From Tubulanus polymorphus (taxonomy: Eukaryota; Nemertea; Palaeonemertea; Tubulaniformes; Tubulanidae), in NCBI RefSeq assembly GCF_964204645.1, contig NC_134031.1, forward strand, positions 1,836,001 through 1,900,000: a DNA stretch of 64,000 nucleotides. Direction: 5' to 3'. Every line of letters starts with the position of its first letter. Position 1 is the stretch's first letter. This document shows, piece after piece, positions 18,749 through 56,700 of the stretch. The position numbers were made by a program, and so were the translations under genes. Under the pieces are notes generated by a model, which was given only the letters and a program-made list of their open reading frames with translations, was not told where the DNA came from and searched no databases.

Positions 18749-19060
18749 AACCCGAACATCTACTTGCGCCCCATTGTACAAAGCATCCATCTCGAAATTC
18801 ACCAGATCCTTAGAGTGACCGGTTCTCGGCGCTCCGTATATTGCGTGTACTAAGAGCTCCGTGAACCACCAATCCAGTCAGCGGTCGCGATGGCGTTAAG
18901 GTTCTCAGTGAATCATAATATAGTGAATCTGGCTGTACAATATGATAACCTGGTATATGCATTTTGATAAAAATACATTGATTTCAAGTTTATGGCTGAC
19001 AGATTAAGTTCACATATCTTCGTCATATCTTTTTTATAGATTTGATAGAACGGCACTAAT

Positions 19061-21670
19061 ATGGCAGCGTTAAAAAAACTACAGACGCCAATTGAGGAAA
19101 GATTAACCGCCGAAATTCAAAAGCTTCCGACGCATTATAAAGAATTTAAAGATAACGAATTCAGCTCTGATTATTTTAAATCGAGAATTGAGACCTTGGT
19201 CGACGAGCCCGAATTCGAAAATTTGGAAAACGGAACAAAAGATGACGAATTTAAACTTGTTTTTCGACGTTTTGAAAACCGCAAGAAGACGCTTCTAGCG
19301 CTGTTTTATTCCGTTATCGACGAGGAAGAGAAAGCGATGGAAATACTGGAAGAAATTATATCCAGTGACGCTAATGCTAGTATTGTAGCTATGGTAAACT
19401 TAGCGTGGTTGAAGATCGAAACTGGAGACCCGTCAGAACAAACAGAAGCCGAAGATTTGATAAACAAAGCTAAAGAAATATACACGAACAAAGATGCTAT
19501 TTTATTCAAACTGATTGCTGATGCCGAAATTTGCCATTTCCACGAGCGAGTTGGACCTGACCATTACCTAAAGGCTATTGAAGGTTTCAGAGATATCGTA
19601 AAAACGGCTGAAACGATATGTCCTGCTGCAGCACCGTACGATATCATTTGGCGATACGAACTGGCCGATTTGATCAACAGAACGTTTAACAAAAATGTAC
19701 TTTCAGGTCCAATGAAACAGTTGAAACAATCTAACGTTGGTCCGGAGGACTACTTACAAGAAGCGGCCGCATTTTTGAAGCCGGTTGTCGAATCCTCGAG
19801 TGAATTTGGGTTCATGAGAGCGCGAGGTTGGGTGATGTACGTTTACCTATTCAACCAATACCGCTACATCAAACCGATAGAGGATCGCACTATGCAACTG
19901 GAAGATATCACCCCAAACGGTGAGAATCTTTGCCAATGTTTAAAAATGGTGGTAGAATTTGGGATAAATGATTATTATTCAATGGAGAGACTCGGCAGGT
20001 TTTATCGCACTGTTGAAATTGATTTGGATGAGGCTGAAAAATATTTGAAGGAAGCAGCAGAACTGAGGCCCACTCCCTACTGTTACAACCAGATAGCTTT
20101 GGCCATTCGAGATAAACTGAATAAAGAGGAAGCCGTTCCTGAGTTGGAAGTAACTGACCGTAAAAATGGTGAGCCGGTCGACGAACAAAAATTATGCGAG
20201 AAAATGCGAGATTTGATGACAGACTCTCCAACTACGCGTGTCCCGGAAACACTAGACGTAACCCGTCAACCACAACCTGAGACATCTGGTGAAGTTTTAT
20301 CGCCGACAACTCCGGGTATAAAACCATCGCTGAAACGCACCAGTTCTACGGTAAAGCACAGTGTCCGTGCAAAATACTTTCAAATATTGCGCTATTCTTC
20401 GTGGCAGGTCGAACGCGTACGAGAAATAGTGGAAAACTTTCGAAAAGCTACCAAAATGACGCAAGGTACATCGCCGTATTTCCAGTGCGAATATTTCCGA
20501 TGGCAGATATCACTGGCTCTGACCGAGGGAACTACTTTAATGTCACAAAAGAAGTTATTTCGCGAATTGAAGAAGATGACAAATCAAAGCAAAGATATGA
20601 TGCCAAGAAATGCCGCTTACATTTACGAGACACTTGGGCAGTTTATGAAGTTTAAGGATAATAAGGAAGAAGCAAAGTTTTGGTATCGCGAAGCCATATC
20701 AACGCGAATGTCGTACAGAGAATCGCCCGGTCTATCTTTCGTCGATCTACGTCAGCTGATCAACAACGACACCGAACAGTCGAAAAAGAACAAAAACCTC
20801 GCTGATCTTTTCGAAATCGTCGGCGATTATCCTGGTGCTATTGGCTTCTTACAAGAAGAATTACTGAGAGACGATTTGGAACCTACAGACGAAACGGCGC
20901 TGTTGCTTTCGATGGCTAAGAATTACGCGAACATGGGTGCGTTTTCAGAAGCAGAATTGTTATTCCATATCTATATGCAACGTTTTCGAGACGAGAAAAC
21001 CATCCCAGCAGACGTCAGATCTTTGTATCTCGATATTAGATTTGGAGTAATGAAGCATATTGCGCAATTGTGTCGTCAGGATACTGAACCTACCGAGAAT
21101 GACACTGAAGAATTACCAGAGCCAAGCTATTTCTATCGACAAATACTGCAGGACGTACTCTTACGAGCGCCATCTGCCAGACGTCGTGCGTACGATTTTT
21201 ACATCGTCGTACCCGAAGAACTGGCAGACGAGAATTCCGAATTAGAAAAGCGTGCCTATGAGCTGTACGAGACGATAGTTTCGTTCGGCATTCCAAGCAA
21301 TCGATGTTGTTTCCCGCGAAAAACGTTGACGATACCCGGTTCACAACATGCGAAACAAGACGCGTATGTTTATATCATTCCGATGGCTTTCGTAAAAATA
21401 GAAGTCGCATGGCGTCTGGCCATCGATATGATTAAAACTCATATACAAGAGAACGATGACTACCGTTCGATTCTACTCGTTCGTTACGAAGACGAATGTC
21501 CGCTAGATGTCGCTCCTGTCGATCGTCCCGACGAGGTAGCCGACATATATACGTTTTTGAAATCGTGTCCAGTCGTTTTCGAATGGCACAAACACGACCA
21601 ACAGGAACTGAATGAAAACTTCATACGCGCCATAATCGATACAAAGTACTGGACCAAACCTGACAAATAA
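19061..21670 (+). CDS. IFIT-like TPR protein with C-terminal TIR-like domain, single coding exon
   Basis: An uninterrupted 869-codon ORF starts ATGGCAGCG, 22 bp after a splice acceptor. The protein is helical and rich in TPR-like hairpins: about residues 70-130 (EEEKAMEILEEII..), 308-345 (DEAEKYLKEAAELRP), 515-550 (ETLGQFMKFKDNKEEAKFWY), 576-605 (LFEIVGDYPGAIGFLQEE) and 613-650 (NYANMGAFSEAELLFHIYMQ). A Pro/Ser/Thr linker with LKRTSSTVK lies near 392-435. This spread of irregular TPRs over most of the chain resembles IFIT/TPR effector proteins. From residue 710, YDFYIVVPEE, an ELEKRAYELYETIVSFGI helix, CCFPRKTLTIPGS and AYVYIIPMAF follow the strand-helix order of TIR domains to about 850. The catalytic Glu of NADase TIRs is not obvious. 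Coding certainty is very high; the TPR call is good and the TIR call is inference. Confidence 0.85.
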   Translation: MAALKKLQTPIEERLTAEIQKLPTHYKEFKDNEFSSDYFKSRIETLVDEPEFENLENGTKDDEFKLVFRRFENRKKTLLALFYSVIDEEEKAMEILEEIISSDANASIVAMVNLAWLKIETGDPSEQTEAEDLINKAKEIYTNKDAILFKLIADAEICHFHERVGPDHYLKAIEGFRDIVKTAETICPAAAPYDIIWRYELADLINRTFNKNVLSGPMKQLKQSNVGPEDYLQEAAAFLKPVVESSSEFGFMRARGWVMYVYLFNQYRYIKPIEDRTMQLEDITPNGENLCQCLKMVVEFGINDYYSMERLGRFYRTVEIDLDEAEKYLKEAAELRPTPYCYNQIALAIRDKLNKEEAVPELEVTDRKNGEPVDEQKLCEKMRDLMTDSPTTRVPETLDVTRQPQPETSGEVLSPTTPGIKPSLKRTSSTVKHSVRAKYFQILRYSSWQVERVREIVENFRKATKMTQGTSPYFQCEYFRWQISLALTEGTTLMSQKKLFRELKKMTNQSKDMMPRNAAYIYETLGQFMKFKDNKEEAKFWYREAISTRMSYRESPGLSFVDLRQLINNDTEQSKKNKNLADLFEIVGDYPGAIGFLQEELLRDDLEPTDETALLLSMAKNYANMGAFSEAELLFHIYMQRFRDEKTIPADVRSLYLDIRFGVMKHIAQLCRQDTEPTENDTEELPEPSYFYRQILQDVLLRAPSARRRAYDFYIVVPEELADENSELEKRAYELYETIVSFGIPSNRCCFPRKTLTIPGSQHAKQDAYVYIIPMAFVKIEVAWRLAIDMIKTHIQENDDYRSILLVRYEDECPLDVAPVDRPDEVADIYTFLKSCPVVFEWHKHDQQELNENFIRAIIDTKYWTKPDK

Positions 21671-21730: not shown

Positions 21731-21736
21731 AATAAA
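21731..21736 (+). terminator. Poly(A) signal AATAAA of the TPR/TIR-like gene
   Basis: A canonical hexamer 61 bp after the TAA, in GAAAATAAAATGC, followed by a T-rich downstream element. Confidence 0.7.
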
Positions 21737-23101: not shown

Positions 23102-26100
23102 GCGCGCCGGGGCCGGTCGAAAACGTTTGCCCGAGGAACTGAAAAAACAACGTCGCGCCATGCGAAAACAGGTTTGCATCTCGTGGCAGTTGTACGACGA
23201 ATGGGAGAAGAAAAAAGAAATCATCGGAATCAATAAAGATAAGGAGTTTTTACACTACATTCTGCGACAAGCCAGGTAAAAAACTGTTTTCATAATATGT
23301 TTTATTACACACGAAATTTTCTTAAACTTCTGCGGGGACAATTTCACGGTCATTGTGCGTCGTGGCCACCAGGGAAAATTGTCGTGGGAACTCTGTTGGT
23401 CCTTATCTATAAACGGTCATATGCTTATCTAAATTGAAGAAGAATAAATCGAAATTTTGTAGAGAAATGTTTATCAGAAAAATGGTGGCCCTTTTCATAG
23501 TAATTCTACAAATGCACACATGCCTTAGAATGTTCTTAGAATTTTTTTTTATACGAGGAAAATATGAATTGCTCATAACTATCTCAGTATTTAGTGCGCA
23601 TAACTCTCAGTAAGGTATATAAGTATAAGGTATGGTATACGCAGATAGCGAGCTGGCGGGAGGAAAAATTTTGTTCATAACTTTTCCAAAAATAGATCGG
23701 ATATTTCTTTGTCCTGTTGCAGCAGCAGCAGCAGCAGTGCGCGCACGTGCTGATGCGCGTTGCCAGATGTTCTCCTGGCAACAGTTACTGCGCACTGTTG
23801 CTCTGTTATCAATTATTGGCCTCGTTCCCGCCAGACGAGCACCTTTTAAGGAAGTGATCACTTAGAACGCTTGCTGCGCTGAGCGATTTGTCAATGAGAT
23901 CTTCCTACTTTTCGGACAGAAACTTGTAACAAGTTCCCACAAGACCTAAATTTCACTATATGTATATATTGAAAAAGGTTTTGCTTTTTTCGATGACTAC
24001 AATCGCGTCTATTTCATAAATTACGCTGGAATTCACAGCATCGTCCAAAAAAATAGTGGCAAAAATAAAGACAACTTCGAATGTATATAATATACCACAA
24101 TTATTGAAAATCTCCTAAAACTGGACTCGATCCTCCCTTCAATTCATGTATATACCTTTTTAATGAATAGATAGATAGTGACTAACTCATTATTCGACCT
24201 TTGGACGTTTGAATAATAATCATCAGACTCTGATCTGATGAAACTCGTGGCGCGTGGGATGTATATATTCAGTATCGCATAACACAGTTCCTTATGGAGC
24301 AGCGCCGTGTAAAACTAAGAATAAGTTTTACGGCTGCTGCTGCTGTTGCTGCTGCTGGAGCTGATGATGATGTTGATGATGATGATGATGCTACGGTTGT
24401 GTGTAATACCTTGCCCGGTATCTCTCCACATTCAGGCAATCAAACGGCGTATCGGGTTTCACCGAGCCGCCAACAGTTCTGCGCACTGCCAGAGCTCCAT
24501 AATCGACCATAACATAACATACCTGTAAAACTGAATCATAGAATAGTTAGCTTTCTTCTATCTCTCAACTCAAGCGCATAAAACTGATTCTGATTATTCT
24601 AAATTTAGATATTCAAAGAATTCGTACTCTAAGATCGCATCATCGTTCACTGTGGTGAAGACGTCTATATATCTTTATTTATCTTAGATCTGAGCCGGTT
24701 TCAATTCAACAAGGCTTAAATTGGCATACAGCCTAGTCTTAGCTTAAGTCTAGTACTCATAATATTAGAATCGGTGTCTTAGAATAAGAAGAAATGCCGT
24801 CTCTTATTCTTTAAGTCTTACAAACTACGTCGCTGTCAAATTTGATACTGAAACATTTTCTTTTCAATCAATTTTTCCAGGCCTCCAGATGAAGACCACA
24901 AAGAAAGCCCGTTCGCTAATTCGAAATCCTTGTCGGAATTTTTCAACGGACTACGTCACGACAACATGCTGTGTGACGTCATTCTGCGCGTGCAGAATCG
25001 CGAAGGTCGTCTGATGTTTTTCCACGCGCACAAACTAGTACTGCTCAATTCGAGTAAATATTTCAAATCGCTGACGAAAGACGAACTGCAGAAAAAATGC
25101 GAGTTTTTTCTCGAGGACGTCAGCCCGGACGGTATACGCCTGCTTCTCGATTACATGTACGGACTGCGCCTGGACCACAACGAGCACCTCGCGCACGTTG
25201 AAGACGTCATAAACGCGGCGGAAGTTCTACAAGTCGAGCAATATCTGAAACATTATAAGGCGTTGAAAAAACTATGGAAAGTTTCGAACGTCGATCGCGC
25301 GATTCTACCACGGGTCGGTAGTAATGATTTCAATTTCCGCGCATTGGATAACGGGCATCATCACGTGATCGGCGCTGCCACCGCCGGTCTGCCTCAAGTA
25401 AAAGTCGAACCGATTACCAAAGATGACGACGTAATTTGCATAGACGAATTAACACGTCAATCAAAACTCGAATCGAGTCAGCCGAACACGCCCATTAACG
25501 CGATACACTCGAATCACCCACCGAGGTTATCGTTGAATACGAACATGGCCGTGTTTCCCAGTCCGCAGCCGGTAATGGCGGGTGAGTTACCAGCCGGGAC
25601 TCTGGGAATGCCGCTGACACCTATCACCCCTAGTGTAGACGGTATCCCGCAACAGGTCAGACCGGTCAATATGCAACAAGTTATATTCATGGTTAACGGT
25701 CAGCCAGTACCGGCCATGATGTTACCGACGAGTCCGAATATAACCCCGACTACTCCGCAATCGGCCCCGGCAATAATGGGACTGACTCCACCGCTGTTCC
25801 CGATACAGGACATTAATCGACAATCAACATCCCCGAGAATGGAACCGAATTTACGACCGAAATTACAACCGAGTCCGCTGTCGAAAACCGAACCGAACTC
25901 CACCGGTCTGCTGGATTTGTCCAAGTCGCCGGAAGACTTCAATTCGCAAACCAGACCGAAACCCGATCACCGTTGCGTCAGATGCAACCAGTCTTTCGCG
26001 TTCATGACTCAGCTGCGAAAACACATGATCGACGTTCATAAAATCGACTGCTTCAAAATGAGAAAGCGTAAAAAGATGCATTACTATTACAGATACGGGA

Positions 26101-27746
26101 AAGCGACTGTTAGACAATACGCGTGCGCGTTGTGCGATATGAAAATGTTTTCCGAGATGGATTTACAGTTACATATCGAGCGTATACACTTGTATTGTCC
26201 ACTGGGTCAATCTAATACCGAGCTGCCCTACTACAGCCAACAACTGTTGTCGTGTTCATACTGTCACAAAGACATAGCGTCGAAAAAACGACTGATTAAA
26301 CATATCAAAAAGGCTCATCTTTCCAGAAAGAAACGCTTTAAATGCGGGAAATGTTCGCGTACGTTCGCGCTGGCGAAAAGTCTTCGTCTTCACCAATCCT
26401 ACAAGCACAGAACCGTGGCGACTGCGGTGCGGACGGCGGTGAAACAGGACGTTCACGGTAGCGCGATACTGTCCGGTCCCAGGTCCGAGATGCAGACGAA
26501 ATGCGGGCTGCAAAGTCGTGGGAATTCACCGCTGAGCGGTCGAACCGGCTCGGTGAGAATATCTTCGTCGGAAAAATCTAAATGGATCTGTCATCTGTGT
26601 TCGTTCGTTTACAATCAACGGTCGTTACTGATAAAACATCTTCAAATTATACACAGCATTTCGAATCCGAACATTTCGACGACTGCGTCGCCAGTAGCAG
26701 AGACTAGTGAACTACTGAAAATATCCGAATCCTCAACGCCTGCTGTCAACGCAAAAAACAACAACGATAATCTTTTCAAACCGGTCGAAATGAATGAATC
26801 TCCGGCACCAAATCAGACCGTAATTACAACATCGCTACAATTCTCTCCGCCTAGTTTAACTCCCAGTTTCTCGATGGCTCCGTCGATGCCCGTGTTTCCG
26901 ACTAACCCGATGAGCGTGCCGATCTCGCCAGAACCGCCGCATATAGACGTGAATTCACCGGCCATCAATCCGCCGCCGCCGCTGTTCCCTCCGTTCTCAT
27001 TACTTCGCCCGCAGTCTCATTCGGCGCCGTCGACCCCTCAGGCAGGCGCGTTCTATAACCAGCGATTACAGGCAGCGCCTCCTGTAAACAGCCGCGGCTC
27101 GTCGCAGACCAGATCGGCCAGATCGGGCGGTCGATTCCATAAAAACGAAGAAATCCAAGGAAATCGACCCCTGAATTATTCATTACCGAAAGTGAACCGA
27201 GACGGCGGTAGAGAAGCTGCCGGGAGTATGATCGACATATCCAAATTCAAACGCGGCGATATACAAACCCCGCAGTTCAGTCAAATGACTTTCAAACTCG
27301 TGAAACAAAAAAACAAATCGAACGAGGTGAAAGCTGATGATTTGTCGAGCCCGGCGGCCGGCACCGCCGCCACTGATGGCGAATACGAATTGAAACTTTG
27401 GCCGCGGAAAGAATCGGCTCCGAACGTCGGTTCGGCGTGCATGTATCGGTGCACGCAATGTCACATGCCGTTTAGTAGAATTCAGTGTTTTACGAAACAC
27501 ATGAATAAAGAACACGGTTTATCGTTCGCGATGGCCCAAGTGAACGTCGATCAGATCATGGCGAAAAGTGCCGAGAAATCGGCGCGGGCTCGGTTCAGGG
27601 CGGCGCAGAAAAAACAACAATTCACTACTAACCAACAAATCAACCAACAAGCCGGTCAAAAACTGCAGCAGCAACAGCAGCAGCATCGCGAACACCCTTT
27701 CAAACAACAAGCATATTCATTCAAACAATATATCCCACCATCTTGA
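23067..27746 (+). CDS. BTB/POZ domain six-C2H2 zinc-finger transcription factor
   Basis: Exon 1 (23067-23275) and exon 2 (24881-27746) join in frame (AG|G codon), giving 1024 residues. The start ATG has an in-frame TGA 39 bp upstream. Residues 1-70 are basic (GGRRAGAGRKR) with a compact KQVCISWQLYDEW..FLHYI helix pair. A BTB domain follows at about 88-200 (DNMLCDVILRV, FHAHKLVLLNSSKYF). C2H2 fingers begin near residues 434, 481, 526, 555, 637 and 924. The linkers carry VKVEP (SUMO site) beside DDVICID (SIM-like), LLDLSKS near 413 (CtBP-type PxDLS) and long Pro/Ser stretches. The C-terminus is Gln-rich. The expected role is a nuclear DNA-binding repressor that dimerises through BTB. It has no clear one-to-one ZBTB name. 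Structure is certain; targets are unknown. Confidence 0.9.
23276..24880 (+). other. Single intron of the BTB zinc-finger gene
   Basis: The intron has GTAAAA donor and TTTTTCCAG acceptor. It holds a (CAG)6 run (23720-23737), a CTG/GATGAT-rich tract (24332-24392) and a CTGATGA...AAACGTC motif on the minus strand (24204-24226). ORFs across the triplet runs are low-complexity artefacts. Confidence 0.7.
24204..24226 (-). repeat. CTGATGA...AAACGTC motif, intronic copy
   Basis: The minus strand reads CTGATGA, nine AT-rich bases, then CAAACGTC. It is a shorter version of the signature seen at 12386-12419 and 57336-57369 and lacks a stable stem. Confidence 0.4.
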
Positions 27747-48189: not shown

Positions 48190-48903
48190 TTTCGATTATA
48201 TTTCCATCAGCTGTCGCGCTCGGATATCGCCGGATTGTGACAGATCGAGTTAGCGTTGTTACTGTTTCCCCAGCGACGCCCTCCGACGATCGCTTCCGGG
48301 TCAAAATCCTCGCTCGCTGATTGGCTGATCGCAGTCAAAATGGTGGTCATCAACCAGGAAATCGAGAAAAGTCATCGAATTCTACACGATTTCTAGACTT
48401 TTAATTGTGAAGTCCGAATAATACAGGGCATCGATTTACCAGAAAGCTATCACCAAATCATATAGTTTATCTGAAATGGCTTTTTATAGACTGTCATAGT
48501 CAATAAACCGCTAAAACAACCGGTTTAACAGACGATTCACATCATCCGTATTTAACGCGAGCCCATCAGGAGCTAGCGCCGTCTACTATTGAATTCATTA
48601 TTCTACTCAATTTTTTTGAAAGTGACTTCTGCAGTTGCGAATTCAGATTTTCCGAGCAAGATAAATAATATCAATTGTCTCATGAGTCCAAGTTTCAATT
48701 TATTACTTGAGCCATTTTGCTTCAATAAAGCAATAATTTGATTGAATTTGAGGCGTTGAGAGAGACCGCCACTGACGAAATGACGTCATCAGTGGAAACT
48801 TCCTGGTCTCGGGGAATCCGGATGTGTTTGACGTTAGCTCCCGAATATATTTTTGACAGGCCGCGGTGACGACGGATTGATAATAAAAAAATTCGGCGAC
48901 GCG
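48190..48903. promoter_or_regulatory. Divergent promoter region, tektin-like (-) and phostensin-like (+) genes
   Basis: About 710 bp separate the two start codons, which point away from each other. An inverted CCAAT box (ATTGG) lies at 48320-48324 in a GC-richer patch (48.19-48.35 kb) next to the tektin-like start. On the other side TATATTTTTGACAG, ending at 48859, could be a splice acceptor or a TATA-like element for the plus-strand gene. Shared regulation is possible but not shown. Confidence 0.45.
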
Positions 48904-51900
48904 ATGGCGACTCTGCCGCCGTGGAAGCTGGCTCTAATCGAGAAAAAACGTCGCCATGAAGAAGACGAACGGCGTCGACATTTAGACGAAATGCGTCGCC
49001 TGGCAGAAATGCCCGCCTGGAAACGCGATCTTTTACTGAAGAAAAAAGCCGTTCAACAAATACACGCGAATAGTAACAACATAGTCTACGACGGGTCGAC
49101 GAATAAATACATCGATAATAACTCGATCGGGACTCGAAACACGTTACAACACGTTCAACAACAAGCAGCGTCGGAAAATAGTCAACGTTCGACGCCCGAT
49201 TCCGGGTTCGACGAAAACGACGCGACGCCGGAAACACCGTCGCCGGTGAAAGTATCGTCGGCGCTTCGATACCACCACCGCGAGAAAGACTACGCGAACG
49301 CGAATATCACCGGGACGACCGCCAATCATAATCACGTAACGACGAACGGCGTCGTTGCCGCCGCGGATAACAATTCGAACGATTCTTCGGAGGAAGAGTT
49401 ACCGTATCAACCTGGATTCGTGCATAAGTTACTCGATAAATTCGCGCATTTGACGGTGAAAAAGAAAAAGTCGGCGTCCGGCGACGGGACGGAATCGCTT
49501 TATCGGAAACGCTCGGCGAGTGTCGAGGATATTTTAGAAACGGATAATAATTCGTTGCAGAGTAAAAAACATAGCGTCAGCGTTGAGGAATTGAGTCCAA
49601 AACGGGTTGTAGATCCACGATTGAGTCCGAAACGCGTTGTAGATCCAGGATTGAGTCCGAAGCGTGTCGTCGATCCGGTATCAAGTCCGAAGCGTGTTGC
49701 CGATCCGGTATTGAGTCCGAAGCGTGTTGTGGATCGCGAGCGGGCCGCTAGCGTTATAGACTACGGGGATATAAACGTTCCTCGCGCGGCGACTCGCGAG
49801 CGTGCCACTAGTATGGTCGTCGATTCCTCGCGCAGAGAGAATCTACTCATTAAAGAATCGAGCGCCGCGAATCATAAGCGATGCGATTATAACGCGAATC
49901 CCGAGTCCAACTTGCAGTCCGCGACTGACGAACCGGATTGTAACAACACGGTGAGGATTATTTCAGGGAATCGTGATAATTTCACGTCCGAGGAATTACC
50001 GGTCAGGAATCTCGTTTCGTCGGTTCGTAATATTTTCGAGAGCGGCGCGATGAAAGGGTCGCCGGAGATTCTGCGCAAGAAGAAATCGCGCGCGCCCGCG
50101 GTTCCCGTGGTAACCTCGCCCGCGGTTCCCGTGGTAACCTCGCCCGCGGTTCCGTCAGTCCCCCCGCAGACCGCACGCATACAACACAACTCAGATCTAA
50201 CGACAAATTTGTCCTCAAAACGGACAGGGCCACCTGGTGGTCACAAAGCGAACAAAACACCGTCTGCTACTACTGTAGCAGACGCTACGAAAAAAGTCGT
50301 CGAAGTCAACAATCGAAACCACGGCGACGATAATAAAACGATCGTCAACGGAGAATTGGCGAAGATCCGCGAGGCAGGTCAGTCATGGGTGTTCGGAGGT
50401 GGGAAGTCGCAGAGTCCGAGTGGTCCGTTACAAAGTCCGGTGGGTGGTCCAGTGCAGAGTCCTTTAACTAACTGTTCGAAAATATCAACGTCGCAAAAAC
50501 ATGATGAAACTAGTAATAATAATATTAATAATAATAATATTCGTTCGGCGGCGAAATCTCAGAAAGATTCTCGACAACAAAATGCGAAAGAATCGCCGTC
50601 GACCTCTTCGACCAAAATGGTTGCCGTGAAACCGGTCGACAATGACTCAAACCGGTCATCGACCACTACGTTTAAACTGGTGACCGGTTCCGACGACGCG
50701 ACCGGTGCGAAATCTCAGGTAAAACCGGCACAGGGGGCGCCACCACAACGACCGACGCTGAACTCGCAACAACCGCGTAAACGCCACGCACCACCCGTAC
50801 CGTCGATATTTACGCAGCCGCAGATTCATAAACGCCACGGCGCGGCGTCGTCGGCGCCAAAAATGACGATCGGGAACGTGACGACCTCGTCGGCGAGTAG
50901 CGACGAGATTCCCGTTACTAATATAGACGACGTTCCGATTACAAATATCGATGACGTGATGGTATTCGAATTAAATGAGGGCAGCGCGCCGACGCCACGC
51001 CCGCCCCCGCCGCAGTTCATCGATACCAAACTCGATTTATCGGGTATCGTTAACGACGCCGTGTTGCCGTCGTCGCGCGACAGGACGAAATACGATCAGA
51101 CGACGACGCCACCTAGGATCAAACCGTGTAATATCGAGTTCATCGGCGCCAACGTTAAACTGGAAAAATCATCTTTACAGAAAACGAAGAAACAAAAGGT
51201 GAGAATTTATTTGTTATTTTCGAGATTTTAGCTTGAAATTCGAGGATTTATTGATGTTAAACTCGGTCTACAACCAGGTCTACAACCAGGCCTACAACCA
51301 GGTCTACAACCAGGCCAAACCAGTTGCTAGGTCAAAACACCAGTTGTTACGCATACGTTAAGCTGATAACCACTGGACTAGTTTTATTGGTCTACTGGTT
51401 TGCATGCTTTCCAGCTACGTACGAGACCAGGGTTTGATTGTCAGTGAATGCGTGTACCTGTCACAGTCTCTGACCATCTTCGTTTTATAGCATTCTGCGC
51501 TCTTCTGTAAGAGGAATTATCGCATACTTTCTCTTTCGATTCCTGTGTTTGGAAGTTTCTGCCCCAAATTTTTTCATCTCTGCGACGTTGGAAATCTTTA
51601 CCGAGAAGATTATCTCATCTATGTGACCTGACTGACCCAGACCTCTGCGTTTTAAGGATATTACACATGTAGGGCCTATGTCTAATCCAGTTTTGTCATT
51701 AGATGTGTTGTACTTTAATAGAGTTATGCGTAATTGGGTGAGGTCCAATAAACTTGAATGAATTTCACGACAATCTGTTGACTGGGTTTTAATATATAGT
51801 AGAAGTTAATTGTTTATAGTCGATATGTCTCTCTCTCTCCTGGCATCTGTCTGAGTCATGTTATTATATATAATACTGTACTGAGTTGTGCTGTTGGAAC

Positions 51901-53704: not shown

Positions 53705-56700
53705 GTTTGATTTGATGAATTTTCATCAGTCTCAGAGATAGAGAGAGAGAAAGAGCTATTACATGTAGATCTACGATTTATAATTCATCACACACTACAC
53801 ACAACCAAAAACTAGGGTGTGGGTTAAATTTGCCTCTGGACCCAGTTCCACAGTTGTGTGAGTTTAGTATTGACTCTGGACCCGGTGTACTGATGTGTAT
53901 ATGGTAATAATGACTGTGGTATATTCGTATATGTCTTATATTGTCAATTATTTCTTGTAGACAGAGTCTATTGGAATGTATACTGTGTTTATATTATCAG
54001 TGTATTCATTAACAAAACCAATAACCACAATTCAATATCTACGACTCAGTTCTCTCTCTGTTAGTCTTCACCACTCTGCGTATGAAATGATCTTTCTATG
54101 TGATAAATAGATTGTATCTGGTGGTGAATCTTCGAGTTGTTGCCAGGGGCTTGTCTGAAGCAGATGGTCTCGGGAGATAAGTGACTGTATAATTGAGCTG
54201 AAGAATCTAACACTCAATCGAAAGAAAAATTGTTCGAGGATTTTGATGTTACAACTCACAAAAAAACAAAATTTGAAAATGGCTCGTTCTTGAGTTCTGA
54301 CTGGGTCGTTCTTGAGTTCTGACCGGGTCGTTCTCGAGTTCTGACTGGGTCGTTCTTGAGTTCTGACCGGGTCGTTCTTGAGTTCTGACTGGGTCGTTGT
54401 TGAGTTCTGACCGGGTCGTTGTTGAGTTCTGACCGGGTCGTTGTTGAGTTCTGACCGGGTCGTTGTTGAGTTCTGACCGGGTCGTTGTTGAGTTCTGACC
54501 GGGTCGTTGTTGAGTTCTGACCGGGTCGTTGTTGAGTTCTGACCGGGTCGTTGTTGAGTTCTGACCGGGTCGTTGTTGAGTTCTGACCGGGTCGTTGTTG
54601 AGTTCTGACCGGGTCGTTGTTGAGTTCTGACCGGGTCGTTGTTGAGTTCTGACCGGGTCGTTGTTGAGTTCTGACCGGGTCGTTGTTGAGTTCTGACCGG
54701 GTCGTTGTTGAGTTCTGACCGGGTCGTTGTTGAGTTCTGACCGGGTCGTTGTTGAGTTCTGACTGGGTCGTTGTTGAGTTCTGACTAGGTCGTTGTTGAG
54801 TTCTGACTGTGTCTTTTTTGAGTTCTGACCGGGTCGTTGTTGAGTTCTGACCGGGTCGTTGTTGAGTTCTGACCGGGTCGTTGTTAAGTTCTGACCGGGT
54901 CGTTGTTGAGTTCTGACCGGGTCGTTGTTGAGTTCTGACCGGGTCGTTGTTGAGTTCTGACTGGGTCGTTGTTGAGTTCTGACTGGGTCAGTCTTGAGTT
55001 CTGACTGGGTCATTCTTGAGTTCTGACTGGGTCGTTCTTGAGTTCTGACCGGGTCGTTCTTGGATTTCAAGTCGTTCAGGTTTTGTGCAAGCTCTGTTTT
55101 TTGCGGATAAATTCAACAGATACATAAACATTATTTCTGCTGATTAAACATCTGTAGATAACTTGCGTCAATCAGAAAAGATAATCAATCAAAGGCACCG
55201 GTATTTGTTGATGTCTTTACTGTCGTGTGATTAATTAGTCTTACCGAGTAATTAATGATAATCTCAGTAGGCTTCGGTAATTAGCAGCCCGATAATTTTT
55301 GTTCGAACTGAGAGATGATGGAGTTTTGATTTTGAACCCGCTGTATTTCAACACCTGGAAATTCTTCCCAAAAAAGAAAATTTTGATAATTTTGTACTGG
55401 ATATTTAAAACAGTGAACTACCGCTTATAACGAACAGATTTTCTGGTGCCTTGAAGATCGTTGTAACAAGATTCCGCTGAATATAAAACTCAAGGGAAAA
55501 TTTGTTGAAAATTTGTCGGATATTTGTTGAAATATTTTTCCAACCCTCTTTGAAGTCCGATCCTCAAATTTTTTACAATTCAAAAAGACCTGCCCTTCAG
55601 CATTTGAGTATTTGAAATGTTAGGGTGTATATGGCCTAATTATGCGATATTTTTGGATCGAAAACCTAGATATTTTATGAATTTGCAGCTGGTTTTCGCG
55701 TGATCCGTTGTAACATCTTGTCAAACGTATCCGGTTTCATATTTGAAATCGTATCTATTTCGATTGTGATGATTTATTTCCGCGCTGGGCCGATCCATGC
55801 ATCCAAGGGGTGGTTTTGGAACGGACTAACTATCATAGTGTAAACGTGGATGACAAACAGATTTTCATTGAGGGACAAAACAGTGTGGCCACTGACCCTG
55901 GACAACTAGGAATTTGAACAATTTTGCAAAAAGTTTTCCTCAAAAATTGAGGCTCTTTATCAATACGTGATTCAATTAAAAAAAATGAATAAATTTTAAC
56001 ATTTTGAGCTTAGAAATTTATCTGATTCATTCCGAGAATATTCTGTTATAACTTGGAAAAATCAGGGACAATACATGGATTTATGAATTGGCGGAAAGTT
56101 GTCGCCCTGAAAGAGTTAAAACTGCGCAGGAGATTTCTATCAGCAAGAAAAACGCGACATATTTTCTTTATGCGGTGGAGCTATTTAATTCACGCGCGCG
56201 GGGAAGTGTTAGATGGTTCGTTAACTCAGCGCAGGAATTCCTGTTACCTCAGGTGCACTTCATTCTACGAATAAAAATATCGATCATATCAGATGATGAT
56301 ATACCTACCTACAGTACGTGTTGTGTGAGACAAGTCACAGTGTGAGACTCGCACAACACCTCCTAGATAAACTAAAGCATCATTCTTCTTAATCCTTTCT
56401 TTGTTTCTTTTTCATCATTTGCCTCAAATGAGACTAAAACATCATCAGGGGCCTGTTGTACAGCGATGGCTCAGACTCAGTAAGTTGAGGGGAAACAGAA
56501 CCTCAACCCTACTAACAATGCCCCGAGTGACACTCAGTAGGTTGAGTGATGGAATTGAATTGATTTTATAGATTGGAATTTAGGGGTAAGCCAGTATTTA
56601 CTGATATTTATCGAGCGTAACAGGAATTCATGTTCATTTATTACGCGCATGAATTAATTCAGTTCATCACCGTGTTGAACATCTGGACTGACAATAGTTG

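Follow-up and report, generated by a model that had tools for sequence, protein, structure and literature searches.

The 64-kb stretch of DNA analyzed here (the window) contains a gene for an 869-residue protein that joins an IFIT-like TPR array to a C-terminal domain, which we consider most likely to be a diverged TIR domain. That the open reading frame is a real gene, as the original prediction had assumed, is apparent from several of its properties. It runs on the forward strand from an ATG at 19061 to a TAA ending at 21670 (19061..21670, +) and has no intron. An open frame of this size has a chance expectation of ~1e-18 genome-wide at the local base composition, the GC content is periodic by codon position (51/34/44%), and four full-length paralogs are present in the same genome. 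An acceptor-like site, TTTTTTATAG, ends at 19039 upstream of the ATG, and an AATAAA polyadenylation signal can be read downstream of the TAA (21731..21736, +).

The protein is composed of four parts, all encoded on the plus strand: an IFIT-like N-terminal TPR block (residues 15-355; 19103..20125), a Thr/Ser/Pro-rich linker (residues about 370-433; 20168..20359) that is mostly coil in a low-confidence model, a second helical TPR block (residues 434-688; 20360..21124), and the TIR-like domain (residues 708-863; 21182..21649). The TPR-type hairpins and the linker described from the sequence were thus recovered, with Pfam matches to TPR_12 at residues 90-142 (1.3e-6) and TPR_8 at residues 520-547 (5e-5) that are weak, generic, and below the curated cut-offs. 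The predicted order of strands and helices in the tail was likewise reproduced from residue 711 onward by a low-confidence single-sequence model, with strands at 711-718, 754-757, 767-775, and 805-807 and helices at 727-740, 780-794, 827-834, and 847-859. The full-length single-sequence model (pLDDT 39.6) gave generic TPR matches only, with IFIT5 and IFIT1 at ranks 46-48 (Z 9.1), and its structure matches were excluded from the evidence. NCBIfam contained nothing specific for this protein. None of the non-immune TPR proteins proved to be a clear ortholog, the matches to TTC21 and NPHP3 being weak and short.

Elsewhere in the window, a neighboring open reading frame (24852-27746, +; 938-964 amino acids) encodes a BTB domain together with multiple C2H2 zinc fingers, as is usual for one type of transcription factor, and a low-complexity frame of 797 amino acids (48838-51231, +) has a weak match to the PP1-binding Phostensin_N family at residues 52-78. 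At 54068-55112 (-) lies a minisatellite in which every reading frame spells the repeat SELNNDPVRTQQRPGQNSTTT, so the open frames there are not genes. Rfam gave no match within the 64-kb window.

The paralogs were collected stepwise from the 268-Mb genome (77 contigs): the window protein identified two relatives, and these relatives, used as queries, identified more. The resulting family comprises five full-length members including the window gene, the others lying at C67:7724-10386, C11:3940935-3943471, C8:12192852-12195434, and, in two exons, C4:6881931-6884504; they are referred to below by contig. In all five, an N-terminal TPR block is followed by another helical block and then by an alpha/beta tail, and the recurrence of this layout in four full-length paralogs is more than chance. 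C67, C11, and C8 are 70-74% identical to one another and have one phase-1 intron in common. In pairwise comparisons with the window gene, the N-terminal block of the paralogs was overwhelmingly similar (z 15-38), and the second block of C67, C11, and C8 was clearly homologous (z 9-12; 0/500 shuffles); the window tail had no significant pairwise similarity to the paralog tails (z below 2). Among C67, C11, and C8, dN/dS was 0.30-0.36 for the TPR region and 0.28-0.52 for the tail; both regions are therefore under purifying selection. Two fragments with in-frame stops and 55% identity to the C67-type tail (L026 and L027, C11:6.23-6.25 Mb) lie near LINE reverse transcriptase frames and are likely pseudogene relics. 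A LINE element with a reverse transcriptase (L025:757-3399, -) is also found directly downstream of the C4 paralog.

The claim that the TPR array is IFIT-like was borne out for the N-terminal block. When a profile of this block from the five genes was compared with the entire PDB, the best match was human IFIT5 (E 1e-9), in two colinear pieces covering IFIT5 residues 40-169 and 251-297, and IFIT1 (0.018) and IFIT3 (0.05) were among the next-best natural TPR proteins; IFIT1 and IFIT2 chains of full length were absent from the results. A comparison using hhalign with a template of human IFIT1 and IFIT5 gave a probability of 81% and a score of 48.0, against 35.5 for a consensus TPR and a maximum of 22.0 over 100 column shuffles. 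Printed PDB alignments served to check the template sequences, every letter of IFIT5 being confirmed. The matched region corresponds to IFIT5 residues of about 10-297. Within it, the N-terminal PNHF/PTHY motif of the family aligns with the CHFTW motif of IFIT, and GPDHYLKAIEGF of the family aligns with GGKYYQKAKAAF of IFIT. Because IFIT5 is the best PDB match and the hhalign score exceeds those of both controls, a sequence-level likeness of the N-terminal block to IFIT beyond that of generic TPRs, and its homology to IFIT, are well supported. The second TPR block gave no significant match to IFIT, in which the third-subdomain region (IFIT5 about 320-470) would be its counterpart.

Several residues of the IFIT RNA pocket have counterparts in the family. 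R163 (19547..19549, +), invariant in all five genes, aligns with the triphosphate-contacting K150 of IFIT5 and K151 of IFIT1 in two MAFFT alignments and a HMMER alignment. By alignment, R198 (19652..19654, +) corresponds to R186 of IFIT5 and R187 of IFIT1 and is replaced by Lys in C4 and by Gln in the other three paralogs, and Y169 (19565..19567, +) corresponds to Y156 of IFIT5 in the window gene only, the paralogs having Ile or Leu. Mutation at K150/K151 (PMC13197388) or at R186/R187 (PMC13197388, PMC12543323) disrupts RNA binding by IFIT proteins. The alignment indicates that two further IFIT5 pocket residues, Y250 and R253, are not conserved in the family. Judged from these residues, RNA binding by the N-terminal block of the window protein is plausible. 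Peptides are the most frequent ligands of TPR arrays, and the same architecture might instead sense a protein or peptide and act as a TIR adaptor that tunes TLR/MyD88 signaling. The loss of the R186 equivalent in three paralogs, the lack of conservation of several IFIT pocket residues, and the many TLR-type genes in the genome are consistent with such a role, but the similarity is specific to IFIT rather than generic to TPRs and R163 is invariant in 5/5 genes; we consider a peptide ligand somewhat unlikely and favor RNA. No ISRE-like site (GAAANNGAAAS) was found near the gene, and the count of such sites in the window was not above chance.

The TIR assignment of the tail stood at the level of the family and failed at that of the single sequence. 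The window tail alone had no Pfam TIR or TIR_2 match, and its direct sequence comparison with TIR gave -0.3 bits, with 89/300 shuffles as good; a decoy at 8.3 in this comparison probably overlaps the tail of the C4 gene itself. As the window tail is not recognizable as a TIR domain from its own sequence, the evidence comes from its relatives. Weak Pfam matches were present in two of the four paralogs, to TIR_2 in C11 (0.006) and C67 (0.011, the top match of that tail) and to TIR in C11 (0.024). All of these were below the cut-off, and for this reason the domain is labeled TIR-like and not a TIR member. A profile of the five tails, aligned from trimmed ends since automatic alignment of the full-length proteins misplaced the tails relative to one another, was compared with the genome's own TIR domains, and with two different templates 0/200 column shuffles reached its score. 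The alignment covered the whole TIR (positions 1-145) in register, placing YDFYIVV with YDAFVSY, matching the box-2 strand, and placing MAFV with KHFL, and addition of the window sequence to the profile raised the score. Searches of the PDB by sequence found nothing for the window tail or the C67-type tails, and the five-tail profile gave chance matches only, such as bL21m.

Structure prediction pointed in the same direction in part. An AlphaFold model built from the five tails was of low confidence (pLDDT 54, pTM 0.49). A structural aligner placed two TLR15 TIR entries first (117 aligned residues, rmsd 4.6), tied with Cap2-CdnD02, at a Z of 5.5, a value that chance resemblance can also produce; four plant TIR entries followed lower in the list. 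In Foldseek the leading place went to Rai1, and the RPS4/RRS1 TIR came sixth, with the best target-normalized TM score among the listed matches (0.48). The structural list for the model contained no SEFIR or STING-like fold, although this does not exclude them. The tail might accordingly be read as a different alpha/beta fold, in which case an IFIT-like TPR protein would carry an unrelated module, and the missing sequence match of the window tail, the low model confidence, and the leading position of Rai1 in Foldseek all agree with this. Against it stand the TIR_2 matches of the paralogs, the profile comparison that no shuffle equaled, the TLR15 TIR as the best structural alignment, and the order of strands and helices, which together make an unrelated fold quite unlikely. 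The identity of the tail as TIR is moderately supported, by the profile of the family, by the paralogs, and weakly by structure, and we regard a TIR fold as probable.

The original prediction had also noted that the catalytic Glu of NADase TIRs was not evident. This holds for the window gene, in which helix alpha-C lacks it and FVKIEVAWRLAIDM stands at the place of RECA or STEM in the paralogs, but does not extend to the family, as the paralogs carry a Glu at about this position (RECA in C67, C11, and C8; STEM in C4). The tail could then be an enzymatic, NAD-cleaving TIR-related domain, a SARM1-like or bacterial-type effector under TPR control, and such a domain would be expected to carry a Glu in the helix of the NADase catalytic residue, as the paralogs do. 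However, the window gene lacks this Glu, and ordinary TLR TIRs have one at the same place, so the paralog Glu proves nothing about NADase activity; we find an enzymatic tail very unlikely.

The reading that we prefer, in which we place about even confidence, is that the window protein is a cytosolic immune receptor-adaptor, an RNA sensor that would signal by TIR assembly. Its N-terminal TPR superhelix, homologous to IFIT, probably retains part of the basic pocket and therefore probably binds foreign 5'-end RNA, with a 5'-triphosphate or an incompletely methylated cap as candidate ligands. Binding would rearrange or oligomerize the TPR array and so bring the C-terminal TIR-like domains together, and the assembled domains would recruit other TIR proteins. 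A scaffold role is proposed for the window copy because the catalytic Glu of NADase TIRs is absent from it; paralogs retaining the Glu might differ in this respect. With about 20 long open reading frames of the LRR-TIR type and four places that encode IRF domains, the genome has receivers for a TIR signal. Searches of the genome, made without a positive control, found neither the STING family nor arthropod cuticle families, and mitochondrial COX1 was absent from the assembly. Given a genome smaller than known vertebrate genomes, the LRR-TIR frames and IRF domains, and the negative cuticle search, we take the host to be an invertebrate other than an arthropod. On contig C10 (about 1.28-3.45 Mb), around a dozen single-exon TIR frames of 764-785 amino acids form a cluster; they are probably LRR-TIR receptors, and the cluster is an apparent lineage-specific TLR expansion.

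More broadly, we tentatively propose an invertebrate receptor family that carries a TIR domain fused to an RNA-binding TPR superhelix truly homologous to IFIT and that couples the recognition of non-self 5'-end RNA directly to TIR signaling, with IFIT-type sensing being older than jawed vertebrates and interferon. IFIT proteins bind and block foreign RNA and have no signaling domain; if the proposal is true, their RNA-binding fold existed before interferon and was at one time, or is elsewhere, wired directly to TIR signaling. It would also provide a testable ligand (5'-ppp or cap0 RNA) and named residues (R163 and R198) for the uncharacterized invertebrate "TIR-TPR" proteins. IFIT has been reported only from jawed vertebrates, arising with interferon, in a survey that used BLAST (PMC3688568), and the N-terminal block of the window family is so diverged that it would escape BLAST as used there. 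Many novel TIR combinations are known in amphioxus (PMC2575513), which makes a further TIR fusion unsurprising in itself.

The original prediction was largely right, but its view of the fusion as unusual needs correction: five such genes occur in this genome, and "TIR-TPR" proteins already figure as a class in oyster (PMC4346834, legend of figure 1) and in Aplysia (PMC9334734, abbreviation list). Within the literature searched, we found TIR-TPR terms for such animal proteins nowhere beyond these two papers. TIR and TPR in one invertebrate protein, as here, were thus already known, but from domain censuses; the main texts of these are silent on domain order, on function, and on any relation to IFIT. 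The vertebrate interferon-induced RNA-binding TPR proteins IFIT1 and IFIT5 resemble the window protein in the order of the N-terminal TPRs, in a motif of the CHF type near the N terminus, in the GG segment that holds the basic residue contacting the triphosphate, and, for the window gene, at the R186 position; one of two alignments adds an NQ/HQ motif at H287-Q288 of IFIT5. They differ in length (about 480 residues versus about 870 here), whereas the window protein has a long linker, a C-terminal TIR-like domain, and a second TPR block without demonstrable IFIT likeness. TIR domains of TLRs, such as that of chicken TLR15 (7ylf), share the order of strands and helices with the tail, in which IPG lies at the BB-loop place and FVKIE at box 2; unlike TLRs, the window protein is not membrane-bound and lacks LRRs, and its tail sequence is too diverged for Pfam. 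SARM1 and the bacterial TIR-TPR-type NADases also combine a helical repeat with a TIR domain, although the SARM1 repeat is ARM rather than TPR and the window gene lacks their catalytic Glu.
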